From positions 1-32,970 of the forward strand of contig CALURX010000022.1 of the NCBI GenBank assembly GCA_944323265.1: 32,970 nucleotides of DNA, written 5' to 3'. The DNA is from Candidatus Gastranaerophilales bacterium. Lineage in GTDB: Bacteria; Cyanobacteriota; Vampirovibrionia; Gastranaerophilales; Gastranaerophilaceae. This document shows positions 8,249-30,589 of this stretch, one piece after another; within the stretch, counting starts at the first letter, position 1; each line of letters begins with the position of its first letter. Made by a program: the position numbers and the translations under genes. Below the pieces are notes generated by a model. That model was not told the DNA's origin and made no database searches. It saw only the letters and a list, made by a program, of their open reading frames with translations.

Positions 8249-10198
8249 CTACAACAACTGCAAAGCAATACTCGGCGTTTGGTTAACAGTTGCAAGAAGT
8301 GTTGCGGAAGCCTGTTGGAGAATTTGCATTTTGATATACTGACTGGACTCTTCCGCAATATCCGCATCACGAATAGTTGACTGCGTCGAAGTCAAATTAT
8401 CTATCGATACCCCGATTGATTCAAGCGCAGATTCAAGTCTGTTATACGCTGCGCCATATTCAGTCTGTTTTGCACTGATTTGAGCTAAAACTTCGTCAAT
8501 TTGTTCCAAGGCATTACGAGCTGAGTCTGAAGTTGATACATCAAGTGTTAGAGAAAAATTAAAACCTAACTCCAACAATATTTGTGAGCTTTCGTCAGAA
8601 TGTATACCGGCTTGAAACTTAATACTGACTGGATTAGATGGCAGTATACCACCGTCAATAAGACCACTTAAATCCAAATTTCCGTAATTGTCACCGATTG
8701 CATTTAAACCGGAATTAACGGCGCTATAGTATATACAATTATCTATAAATCCATCTTCTGTAGAACCAATAAATGCTCCAGTTGTTGTCTCATCATTGCC
8801 AATAATCGAACTTGTAGTATAACTATTATGGATTTCTCCTTGTGAAAGTCCTAATAATCCACCGACATGCTCGTCTCCTATTACACTTCCTGTCGAATAG
8901 CAATTTTGCATTGTAGAAGAGCCAGCAAATTCTCCTGCGAGTCCACCAACTTCAGTTCCTCCATTTACATTACCTGTTGCATAACTATTTAAAATGGTTC
9001 CATACCATACCTCACCAATAAGACCACCTATCAAATAGTCTGTTTCTGTTGAATTAACATTTCCGGTTGCATAACAATTATCAACTGTACACTGGTCTAC
9101 TTCACCAGCTAAACCACCGGCATAGTCACCGTCATTAGTAATATTCCCTGTTGAATATGAATTAATGATATCAAGATACTCTGCTATTCCAATAATTCCT
9201 CCGGTCTCACCGCCTCCCACAATATTTGCTGTTGAATAGCAATTTTGAATATTACCTCCCTGCAGGTCTCCAATGATACCTCCCGTCTCTCCTTTACTTC
9301 CTATAATAGTTCCATTTGTTACATAACAATTTATAAAACTTGTCGTATAACCCCCTCCACTTAATCCGCCAACATCTCTTGAGCCGGTTATATTAATATT
9401 CTCTAGGCCTATATTAGATATTATAGCGCCGTATGTATATCCAAAGAATCCTTGATAGTTTTCATTTGGTTTATTAATTGTAAGGTTTTTTATTTTATAC
9501 CCATTTCCGTTAAACTCGCCTGTAAAAGAATTTCTAGAATTACTGTCTGTTCCAATTGAATCCCAGTCATAGCCTGCAAGGTTGATATCGTTCATCAATA
9601 TGTATTTACCGTCCAGGTCGTTTTGCATTGCTTGCAATTCATCAGCGGTTTTGATAACTGTATATCCCTGTTGAATAGCTTCCTCTTCTGTTAAACGCTC
9701 AACCTCCTCAATAAAACCGTCATACTTTGCAGCAGGCGGTTCTGTTGTGGGGCCTACAGGAAAAGCTGGGCCGGATGCAGTATCGCTATAAAGCTTAATA
9801 CCGTTATACTCTGTCGTTGTACGGATTCTTACGCATTCTGCAAGGCGTGCGTTGATTTCTGATTGAATGGCGCTTAACGAAGAAGCCCCATAAGTGCCGT
9901 TTGCTGCTTGTTCTGACAGGTCGCGCATTCTGGATAAGTGGTCGGATATCAAAGACAAGCTGTCCATTGCGGTTGTCAGCATATCCAAGCCCATTGATAC
10001 GTTATCCTGAGCAACACTATAAGAGGATAATTTGCTCGCAAGGCTTGTGGAGATTGCGTAATTTGCAGCATTGTCTTTTGCGTGGTTGATTTTATATCCT
10101 GTTGTCATGCGCTCTATTGCTTGGTTTAATCCGTTTGTGGATGCGGCCAGGTTTGAGCGTACTATTAAAGAAGAGAGATTGGAGTTTATGCTAATCAT
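8249..10198 (-). CDS. fliC: Flagellin with GLUG-repeat beta-helix insert
   Basis: The protein (649 residues) has complete flagellin ends. Residues 1-145 form the N-terminal D0/D1 coiled coil (MISINSNLSSLIVRSNL, MTTGYKINHAKDNAANYAIS). Residues about 550-649 form the C-terminal D1/D0 (NLTSTQSTIRDADIAEESS to IALQLL). The part normally forming D2/D3 is replaced by about 370 residues: a lead-in like that of GLUG proteins (TADELQAMQNDLDGKYILMN, FTGEFNGNGYKIKNLTI), then eight repeats about 28 residues apart centred on GG-hydrophobic-x-G (VGGLSG, TGGIIG, AGGLAG, IGGLIG, VGGLLG), alternating with N-C/S-Y-x-T-G-x-I/V. GLUG repeats occur in bacterial surface adhesins and IgA-protease-like proteins and are predicted beta-solenoids. 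The insert should face outward on the filament. AGGAGG lies 5 bases before the ATG. Confidence 0.92.
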   Translation of the reverse strand: MISINSNLSSLIVRSNLAASTNGLNQAIERMTTGYKINHAKDNAANYAISTSLASKLSSYSVAQDNVSMGLDMLTTAMDSLSLISDHLSRMRDLSEQAANGTYGASSLSAIQSEINARLAECVRIRTTTEYNGIKLYSDTASGPAFPVGPTTEPPAAKYDGFIEEVERLTEEEAIQQGYTVIKTADELQAMQNDLDGKYILMNDINLAGYDWDSIGTDSNSRNSFTGEFNGNGYKIKNLTINKPNENYQGFFGYTYGAIISNIGLENINITGSRDVGGLSGGGYTTSFINCYVTNGTIIGSKGETGGIIGDLQGGNIQNCYSTANIVGGGETGGIIGIAEYLDIINSYSTGNITNDGDYAGGLAGEVDQCTVDNCYATGNVNSTETDYLIGGLIGEVWYGTILNSYATGNVNGGTEVGGLAGEFAGSSTMQNCYSTGSVIGDEHVGGLLGLSQGEIHNSYTTSSIIGNDETTTGAFIGSTEDGFIDNCIYYSAVNSGLNAIGDNYGNLDLSGLIDGGILPSNPVSIKFQAGIHSDESSQILLELGFNFSLTLDVSTSDSARNALEQIDEVLAQISAKQTEYGAAYNRLESALESIGVSIDNLTSTQSTIRDADIAEESSQYIKMQILQQASATLLATVNQTPSIALQLL

Positions 10199-18976: not shown

Positions 18977-19264
18977 ATGGCACTAAAACCATTAGCAGAC
19001 AGAATTGTTATTAAAGTTATTGAAGATACTGAACAAACTTCAGGCGGAATATTTATTCCTGACAGTGCAAAAGAAAAACCTCAAAAGGGCGAAGTTGTTG
19101 CTGTAGGTGCAGGCAAAGTTAATGATAACGGAGAAAGAGAACCGATGGATGTTAAAGTCGGCGACATCATTCTTTACGCTAAATACGCCGGTACTGATGT
19201 AAAAATGGACGGAGTTGAATACAAGATTCTTTCCGTAAAAGATGCCTTAGCTATTGTTGAATAA
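18977..19264 (+). CDS. groES: Co-chaperonin GroES
   Basis: The 95-residue protein forms the heptameric lid of the GroEL chamber. The start [13 protein letters not shown], the mobile loop that contacts GroEL ([20 protein letters not shown]) and the tail [18 protein letters not shown] with DALAIVE are all standard. AGGAGG precedes the ATG. Unusually, groEL does not follow directly: a 420-base element carrying its own gene separates the two, although the strand and close spacing still allow one transcript. Confidence 0.97.
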
Positions 19265-19268
19265 CAGC

Positions 19269-19298
19269 GTGAAGAGTGAGGCGTGAAGCGTGAAGGGT
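19269..19298 (+). repeat. Left heptamer array of the IVS-like element
   Basis: Four tandem heptamers GTGAAGA, GTGAGGC, GTGAAGC, GTGAAGG plus GT. The last unit (GAAGGG, about 6 bases before the ATG at 19304) can also serve as the ribosome site of the enclosed gene. Confidence 0.85.
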
Positions 19299-19303
19299 AC
19301 ATT

Positions 19304-19651
19304 ATGAATCACAAAGATTTAGATGTTTGGAAAAAATCGGTAGATTTAGTTTTAAAAATATACAACATAACTAAACAATTCCCTAAAGAAGAAATGTTCG
19401 GTATTGTTAACCAAATGAGAAGAGCCGCAATTTCCATCCCTTCAAATATTGCAGAGGGCTGTGCAAGATATTCAGACAAAGATACTTTAAGATTTATTGA
19501 TGTTGCTTTTGGCTCAGTTGCAGAATTAGAAACTCAATTAATAATTGCAGAACAGTTAGGTTATTGCAAAAGTTGTGAGATTGTGGGCGATATTGACAAA
19601 GTTGAAAAATTATTGTCAGGCTTGCGTCGCCATCTAAAAAATAAAAATTAA
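19304..19651 (+). CDS. Four-helix-bundle protein, 23S rRNA intervening-sequence family
   Basis: From the ATG at 19304 the protein has 115 residues; an in-frame GTG at 19283 lies inside the repeat arm and is less likely. The family pattern is clear: HKDLDVWKKSVDLVLKIY, then FGIVNQMRRAAISIPSNIAEG, then FIDVAFGSVAELETQLIIA and a final helix rich in Leu and Arg (LLSGLRRHLK). This is the S23/IVP four-helix-bundle family, which also includes the Avd accessory proteins of diversity-generating retroelements. Such basic bundles are thought to bind nucleic acid. No reverse transcriptase is nearby. Its arm repeats and its place inside groESL suggest it arrived as a small mobile unit. Confidence 0.88.
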   Translation: MNHKDLDVWKKSVDLVLKIYNITKQFPKEEMFGIVNQMRRAAISIPSNIAEGCARYSDKDTLRFIDVAFGSVAELETQLIIAEQLGYCKSCEIVGDIDKVEKLLSGLRRHLKNKN

Positions 19652-19656
19652 AATGA

Positions 19657-19686
19657 ACCCCTCACTCTTCACGCCTCACCCTTCAC
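19657..19686 (-). repeat. Right heptamer array of the IVS-like element
   Basis: Read on the minus strand it is four heptamers GTGAAGG, GTGAGGC, GTGAAGA, GTGAGGG plus GT, inverted with respect to the left array. Mismatches to the left arm fall only at heptamer positions 5 and 7, as expected if units vary around GTGARGN. Confidence 0.85.
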
Positions 19687-19697
19687 AATGTTAATGA

Positions 19698-21368
<1,671 letters not shown>

Positions 21369-29849: not shown

Positions 29850-30555
29850 CTAAGATTGTTTTTCAAGCTCTGAAACTCTATTTCGAAGCTCCTCTATTGC
29901 TTTTTGTTGTTCTTCAATCAACTTTTGCTGAGCCTTTATTGTTTCATCCTGCTCTTTATTTTTTGTTTTTACACTTACGATATCTTCTATATTTGTTTTA
30001 GCCTGCAAAGATAATGTCTCTATTTTGTTATCGAGTTCTTTTACGGCATTTATTACTGCATAGAACATTTCATCCCATCTAATACTCAAATAACCATCTT
30101 CATCCAATTTTACCGCATCAGGGAATACTTTTTGTAAATCCTGTGCTATTACACCAACTTGAGGTCTTTTTGTCTTATCATCCTTGAATGTATAGTTATA
30201 AAAATCAAGTTTTTTGAGCGCTTCAAGTCCTAAAGTATATTTTTCTCCAATATTTTTCAAACGTTTATCAGACTTCTTCCAGATAGAATAGTATATTTTC
30301 CCGCGAACTGTTACAGAACTATACCAGTTGATACGCACCTAAAGCCGTCGCACCTGTCACACCGGATGAGTTTGCATCAGCATAATTCCTTAGAGCAACA
30401 CCATTTGCTCTAGCAGAGGAATCTGCACCTATACTTACGGCACTATTACCATACGCGTTAGCCTCTCCTACGATTGCGATAGAACGAAGAAATGTATTCG
30501 TATTTAAACCTATTGCAATTGTATTGTCGTCCTTCGCCTGTGCATTGTTTCCAAA
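29850..30555 (-). pseudogene. Truncated, frameshifted YadA-head/S74 fibre gene
   Basis: Two overlapping minus-strand frames make one broken gene. The upstream part (30555 to 30319) encodes YadA/trimeric-autotransporter head repeats (NTIAIGLNTNTF, SAVSIGADSSARANG, GATALGAY). A one-base frame change near 30335 joins it to the downstream part (to 29850): WYSSVTVRGKIYYSIW, then the S74 intramolecular chaperone domain with SDKRLKNI (self-cleavage Ser) and PQVGVIAQDLQKVFPDAV, and a C-terminal coiled coil. Such domains trim themselves off tail fibres and surface adhesins. The 5' end is missing: coding sequence starts right at the HU terminator with no promoter, signal peptide or credible start. Sequencing error could explain the frameshift but not the truncation. 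Confidence 0.75.
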
Positions 30556-30589
30556 AAAAGAGAAGGTTTTATACAAAACCTTCTCTTTT
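30553..30589 (-). terminator. HU gene terminator
   Basis: AGAGAAGGTTTT (minus strand, from 30586) pairs perfectly with AAAACCTTCTCT (to 30559) around a 4-base loop, with A and T runs on both sides. It lies 16 bases beyond the HU stop codon and directly abuts the fibre-gene remnant. Confidence 0.9.

Follow-up and report, generated by a model that had tools for sequence, protein, structure and literature searches.

The closest described relative of the element reported here is the intervening sequence (IVS) in the 23S rRNA of Coxiella burnetii, which is 428 nt long and has complementary ends that form a 28-bp stem (PMC4990558). Three tandem copies of GACAGAT and a fourth repeat, GACAGAA, lie directly before the start of its S23p gene, and RNase III cuts at the first of these heptamers, the copy number of which varies (PMC4990558). 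This IVS is considered selfish, mobility of its ORF had been proposed, and its repeats had been read as a local curiosity (PMC4990558). Heptamer families are also known from Xanthomonas (GGGAATC) and Nostoc (GGGGAYT) (Rehm et al., 2015; PMC4692102). In X. campestris, four units of GGGAATC are preferred, positions 1–4 and 6 are conserved and there are 70–75 convergent pairs per genome; on the coding strand the arrays follow closely after stop codons and on the non-coding strand they lie upstream of starts, and they were described as quadruplex-forming repeats, without a source gene (PMC4692102). The TAACTGA heptamers of Beggiatoaceae, cyanobacteria and Bacteroidetes (MacGregor, 2015; PMC4679880) resemble the arrays described below in being tandem and intergenic, patchy over phyla and suspected of horizontal spread with no evident mechanism, but were not linked to a four-helix-bundle gene in that study. 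Similarly, the P6b stem of the Nostoc tRNA-Leu(UAA) group I intron is built of one of two heptamer words that have been swapped wholesale in independent lineages (PMC4476775), although it belongs to a group I intron and holds no gene.

We analysed a window of 32,970 nt from the 2.24-Mb genome of a Candidatus Gastranaerophilales bacterium (G000). A first-pass annotation had placed a 418-nt unit, consisting of a four-helix-bundle gene between inverted GTGARGN arrays, in the gap between groES (18977–19264, plus strand; ORF list and genus survey) and groEL (19719–21368, plus strand; ORF list), and this unit is present as claimed. The left array starts 4 nt past the groES stop codon and comprises four heptamers (GTGAAGA GTGAGGC GTGAAGC GTGAAGG; 19269–19296, plus strand), as does the right array on the minus strand (GTGAAGG GTGAGGC GTGAAGA GTGAGGG, reading from 19686 to 19659). 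The pairing of 27 of the 30 array positions compared in that annotation was reproduced. Inverted arms of 42 nt, 86% complementary to each other, were delimited by a repeat search (left, 19262–19303, plus strand; right, 19652–19693, minus strand). The gap has an inverted-repeat score of 28.8, whereas none of 1000 dinucleotide shuffles of it scored above 14.6. The inner end of the left arm, GTGAAGGGTACATT (19290–19303, plus strand), has similar counterparts in other cassettes, such as GTGCATT or GTTCATT. The small ORF between the arms runs on the plus strand from the ATG at 19304 to a stop at 19651. Downstream, the groEL ribosome-binding site AAAGGAG (19704–19710, plus strand) is intact despite the insertion and is also present in relatives without the cassette. 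The last left heptamer had been proposed to double as a ribosome site for the small gene. This is plausible in G000, where GAAGGG precedes the ATG, but does not hold generally, as such a site is missing from cassettes with other words.

The encoded protein of 115 aa belongs to the S23p/23S_rRNA_IVP family, with matches to PF05635 (E 9e-37, 125.9 bits; curated cut-off 33.8) and TIGR02436 (E 2e-35, 121.3 bits; cut-off 24). A related protein, Xanthomonas campestris XCC0516 (PDB 2gsc), is described, in a title cited in PMC3936711, as an assembly of five four-helix bundles. The unit encodes no recognisable catalytic domain and no recombinase, and no catalytic partner for it came to light. Values of dN/dS in the family are 0.03–0.13, and the PF05635 cassette proteins are under strong purifying selection. 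Compared with the Coxiella IVS, the unit has the same protein family, the same size, tandem heptamers before the ORF and complementary ends, and its 42-nt arms can form an extended stem, as do the ends of 23S rRNA IVSs. However, it sits between groES and groEL rather than in a 23S rRNA helix, and PF05635 cassettes generally occupy mRNA operon junctions, whereas the Coxiella IVS lies in rRNA. Furthermore, the cassette gene is under purifying selection while the Coxiella gene is decaying, and the cassettes differ from that IVS in having words that vary by lineage and gene-less copies that are dispersed. A motif scan of the surveyed loci revealed no rRNA IVS, and the Coxiella layout is that of the published description.

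The layout seen in G000 is common to most of the family. We compiled 186 distinct PF05635 genes with their flanks, drawn from a family survey, 80 loci from many phyla and 43 viral contigs, and scored as positive any inverted repeat scoring at least 14 within 150 bp of the gene. Inverted arrays were found at 84% of these genes, against 1.1% at control positions in the same loci and 2.4% when arms were swapped between elements, where these and all other test counts are of sequences and not of independent events; about 16% of the genes have no arms inside 150 bp. Among further gammaproteobacterial loci, 21 of 30 were positive compared with 0 of 242 controls. The period of the left arm is 7 (101 elements), 8 (45) or 9 (8). 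Cassettes of the same build occur on cyanobacterial plasmids, with words such as TAGGGAG, GTCAGGA and TAGCTTT. A viral search with the G000 protein as sole query returned no relative; with an alignment as query it gave the 43 loci, most of them bearing arms, and no such element was found in GenBank phages. GTGARGN, the word read in the first-pass annotation, is just one of many.

The claim that the unit is mobile was borne out by the groES–groEL junction of the genus. Empty sites, for which a comparison of related groESL loci had been suggested, exist: 22 of the 50 gaps surveyed measure only 14–45 nt, and one further gap is 64 nt. A cassette of 445–552 nt fills 21 gaps (in one case as a pseudogene), a decayed copy is left in one, and five contain gene-less, hairpin-like or other inserts of 115–207 nt. 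Filled and empty sites alternate among close relatives, and the same build recurs at other sites and in many phyla. For example, locus L055 has a cassette and L053 is empty, with groES and groEL flanks that are 94% identical. The arms of these cassettes are arrays of 7- to 8-mers, and both arms of one cassette share a word, but the word itself varies among cassettes (GTGARGN, GTGAWTA, GTGAATC, AAGTGAYT, AAGTGAYC and GTTAATAA). Close loci can hold different types, GTGARGN in L069 and L074 and GTGAWTA in L071 and L073, and the swap between L074 and L073 lies within flanks that are 96% identical. In L055 an apparent remnant of a GTGARGN array adjoins the AAGTGAYT arm. In a protein tree, built without support values, the groESL copies are spread over several positions, intermingled with those from elsewhere, with one word per clade, which suggests that cassettes arrived at groESL several times. 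No clear target-site duplication was seen in the filled/empty alignments or hairpin flanks, which are AT-rich. Neither of the two outcomes that the annotation had set against its own reading, a unit carried at this spot by all relatives without other copies or array-less family genes elsewhere in the genome, was encountered.

The placement of the cassettes is far from random with respect to operons. For 116 elements both flanking genes were identified: 89 lie in the sense orientation between co-directional genes, 18 are antisense, six are between divergent and three between convergent genes (sense bias, p 2e-12, or 5e-9 when groESL copies are excluded). The median distance from the upstream stop codon to the left arm is 3 nt, and that from the right arm to the next start codon is 24 nt. 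Selection against damage to stop codons and ribosome sites explains part of this placement, and the sense bias suggests that operon-driven expression or a step at the transcript level matters. Stops in all three frames are found in 64% of left arms, compared with 36% when the letters of the word are permuted and 21% of right arms; one stop per word is enough for this because the period is not divisible by three. The host operons, groESL, nrdB–nrdA, cas6–cas4 and accB–accC, have no common function. In Pseudanabaena, and likewise in Anabaena 90, cas6 and cas4 flank a PF05635 cassette; such insertions may explain earlier reports of the family as CRISPR-associated, and the presence of PF05635 genes in cas loci (PMC3936711) is consistent with insertion at junctions. 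Among the loci from cyanobacterial plasmids, L420 and L422 have cassettes inside cas6–cas4 in two different cyanobacteria.

The word follows the lineage of the gene. The left arms of two elements are the more similar the closer their proteins are, with values of 0.16 at 25–35% identity, 0.45 at 65–80% and 0.84 at 80–95%. Genomes with at least two PF05635 genes have a different word at each, as in G021 and G050 (GTGAWTA and GTTTAGAA/GTTGAGAA) and in G623 (GTGAGGN and AGATACA). Linkage by descent alone could give much of this correlation, and counts of arrays in trans are a stronger test of the bond between gene and word. G000, for which a search for further array-flanked genes had been suggested, has one PF05635 gene. 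A three-word GTGARRN pattern nevertheless matches at 62 places in this genome and the reversed pattern at none, so the arrays must be more than the ends of that one gene. Most are single and intergenic, often near arrays of other words (AAGTGAYY, AGTTGAAN, GTTTAGAA), and G000 has a dispersed heptamer family of many intergenic arrays, each of about four degenerate copies, throughout the genome; a few form inverted pairs 70–100 bp apart without a gene. In the five members of the genus with a GTGARGN cassette there are 3, 13, 52, 74 and 274 GTGARGN matches, compared with mostly zero in 60 other genomes of the genus (p 3e-6), the exceptions being G011, G054 and G047. Similarly, when only genomes at least 90% complete are considered, 15 of the 26 that carry a PF05635 gene of any kind have three or more array matches, as does one of the 20 that carry none (p 2e-4). 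In two prediction searches the genomes expected to be positive were set by the word already read at the gene. For GTGARGN (49 genomes), all four predicted genomes were positive, against two of 45 others; for GGGANTN (46 genomes), again all four were positive, against one of 42 others, and all 19 genomes without a detected gene have at most one match (both searches pooled, p 1e-9). In 400-kb samples, two gene carriers had 23 and 36 arrays, and that of a relative lacking the gene held no convincing array, its three matches being AT-rich noise. Some array-rich genomes yielded no matching gene: G011 (223 GTGARGN matches, 80% complete), G054 and G629, where the arrays are of GGGATTC and both PF05635 genes examined carry other words. 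Several of the surveyed genomes are incomplete drafts, and gene loss, missing contigs or action in trans are possible in these three; AAGTGAYT arrays are also common outside the carriers of an AAGTGAYT cassette.

Many of the arrays in the carrier G141 are gene-less hairpins of 75–144 bp. In two sets of them, the loops of hairpins at separate loci resemble each other, and most lie between co-directional genes; these are MITE-like derivatives. Like MITEs and REP/RAYT systems, the cassettes are thus accompanied by dispersed, gene-less, short inverted-repeat copies beside a gene-bearing form. They differ in that their ends are lineage-specific tandem word arrays and that they lack a transposase domain. 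In G000 itself, gene-less GTGARGN hairpins lie at successive gene junctions of one region (L032, C30:3000–12000), and two of their loops are near-identical. Intergenic regions of G000 and G026 (e.g. L288:16361–16567) also contain composites of four words in a fixed order, repeated many times: GTGARGN, AAGTGAYY, then AGTTGAAN and GTTTAGAA reversed. These look like nested or recombined half-elements. A comparison of solo arrays between G000 and G026, in which the sampled stretches overlapped little, gave one clean indel at orthologous sites.

The heptamers of Xanthomonas and Nostoc share with the cassette arrays a number of about four copies, constant word positions, convergent pairs and placement relative to stops and starts. 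In a gammaproteobacterium (G662, locus L449), the accB–accC junction holds a frameshifted PF05635 relic that is flanked on either side by GGGAATC arrays; it is 59% identical to XCC0516, the nearest relative of which among the proteins found is 64% identical. We draw here a link between GGGAATC heptamers and PF05635, which may have been stated earlier outside the open PMC literature.

Taking these data together, we consider it probable that the groESL unit is one copy of a very widespread, minimal family of IVS-like mobile elements, the protein of which recognizes its own word. The architecture, the presence and absence at orthologous sites, the replacement by other lineages with their own word, the link between gene lineage and word, the gene-less arrays and hairpins, the insertion at junctions, mostly in sense orientation, and the purifying selection are all directly observed, and from these we infer recognition and the chemistry of movement. 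Each element would comprise one four-helix-bundle gene between inverted arrays of about four copies each of a word of 7–9 nt. The protein, a homopentamer in the solved relative XCC0516, would bind arrays of its own word, as an initiator does its iterons. By doing so it would mark both its own cassette and gene-less derivatives at their ends, destining them for transfer to new junctions. Movement probably uses host or other enzymes, because the element encodes no recognisable catalytic domain. The operon would stay working because the cassette goes in after a stop codon and ahead of the following ribosome site, and because the left array supplies stops in all frames, and any RNase III cut of the transcript stem, as in rRNA IVSs, would be tolerated. 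The 23S rRNA IVSs with an S23p gene would then be copies that landed in rRNA.

How far the resemblance to IVSs extends to RNA deserves separate consideration. The first-pass annotation had suggested that the unit could fold out of the groESL mRNA as an IVS-like stem-loop, and the stronger form of this idea is that the arrays serve to build a stem in the host transcript, which is cut by RNase III and selected as RNA; a cut would free a small mRNA and uncouple groES from groEL. The heptamer layout shared with the Coxiella IVS supports the comparison, as do the stable predicted fold of the G000 gap (−121 kcal/mol), the cutting of 23S rRNA IVS stems by RNase III, in Coxiella where the heptamers start (PMC4990558), and the sense bias of insertions. 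However, mismatches between the arms on the sense strand comprise 170 G–U and 224 A–C pairs, and as this is not the G–U excess expected of a stem selected as RNA, such a stem is not an evident selected feature and is left unsupported as the reason for the arrays. Single unpaired arrays and composites with unlike left and right words are also common in G000 and G026. The arms match copy by copy beyond what a shared word needs (92 versus 41 elements), which speaks for this explanation but also implies some role for pairing or copying at the level of DNA. Cutting of the cassette stem by RNase III may well occur, but seems not to be the main constraint, and we regard the RNA-level explanation as unlikely.

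A regulatory module is a less probable alternative still. Here, by binding the arrays, the protein would regulate its own gene as well as array-bearing operons, in this case GroEL supply, and spread would be selected as that of a regulon. The match between lineage and word, the presence of arrays at many operon junctions and the purifying selection on the protein would all fit such a role. However, close relatives differ at these junctions, which are empty in many cases, the hosts from groESL to accB–accC share no function, and words are swapped wholesale at one site.

It is very doubtful that the arrays are ordinary simple-sequence repeats, produced by polymerase slippage or gene conversion, with the gene simply prone to lie between them. 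No class of long repeat is commoner in bacteria than heptamers, for which slippage has been proposed (PMC4692102, PMC4679880), and the copy number of the arrays does vary, Coxiella included; but the copies are non-identical, with some positions of the word constant and others variable, as in Xanthomonas (PMC4692102), inverted pairing surrounds one gene family (84% versus 1%), and the arrays are concentrated in genomes with the matching gene. Least probable of all is that another element, a RAYT/REP transposase or a retroelement such as a diversity-generating retroelement (DGR), supplies the ends and the movement with the four-helix-bundle gene as passenger, for although G000 encodes a single Y1 transposase, as well as two reverse transcriptases (RTs) beside DGR-like variable proteins, and the Avd protein of DGRs is distantly related to the PF05635 protein, the Y1 gene has a palindrome of its own (GTAGGTCAGGCA–TGCCTGACCTAC), a search for period-7/8 arrays in 3.3 kb around the Y1 gene and around both RT genes found none, and the word tracks the four-helix-bundle lineage.

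If the mobile-element reading is correct, it gives one account of three things that have been treated separately, namely the nature of the 'four helix bundle' or 'S23 ribosomal protein' genes, which are very common yet seem to lack a function, the origin of rRNA IVSs and the abundance of degenerate heptamer arrays between the genes of many bacteria. PF05635 genes in cas, DGR and other operons, for which accessory functions have been put forward (PMC3936711, PMC10053308), may be passengers there. We also offer a broader proposal, about which we are hesitant and which could well fall either way: that these cassettes form a separate class of mobile element in which a non-catalytic pentamer reads arrays of a 7–8-nt word at both ends of its gene and directs copies into operon junctions, with word and protein co-diversifying into orthogonal elements that share genomes. 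From this class would come the rRNA IVSs, as well as many of the heptamer families still without explanation in cyanobacteria, Xanthomonas, Bacteroidota and the genus studied here. Perhaps the pentamer ring takes up one word per subunit, as single-stranded DNA or RNA. The matched pairs of protein and word make the model directly testable.

The first-pass annotation had also remarked on the kinship with Avd and on the lack of a reverse transcriptase. Avd is a distant relative, and structural homology between Avd and 2GSC has been reported, but the 115-aa protein scores far below the Avd cut-off (26 versus 80 bits) and has no adjacent RT and no template/variable repeat. No RT had been seen in the window, but two RT genes lie on other contigs of G000 (L269, C16:21303–21884; L270, C2:51082–51594), each beside a DGR-like variable protein, in that the end of the neighbouring protein resembles a DGR variable-region protein; L269 and L270 are likely diversity-generating retroelements. 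The Y1 (RAYT-like) transposase gene of G000 (L271, C13:40477–40803) lies between GTAGGTCAGGCA/TGCCTGACCTAC palindromes, and this palindrome also adjoins some word arrays. As the ends of the groESL unit are word arrays and those of the Y1 gene a different palindrome, the unit does not belong with REP/RAYT or IS200-type elements. Both the RAYT and the RT genes were rejected as owners of the arrays, there being none near either. Elsewhere in the window, a flagellin-like ORF of 649 aa (8249–10198) has conserved ends and a long central insert of GLUG-like repeats, and two neighbouring minus-strand ORFs (29850–30576) look like pieces of a single surface or tail-fibre protein that has apparently been split, resembling its stalk and its S74-type end.
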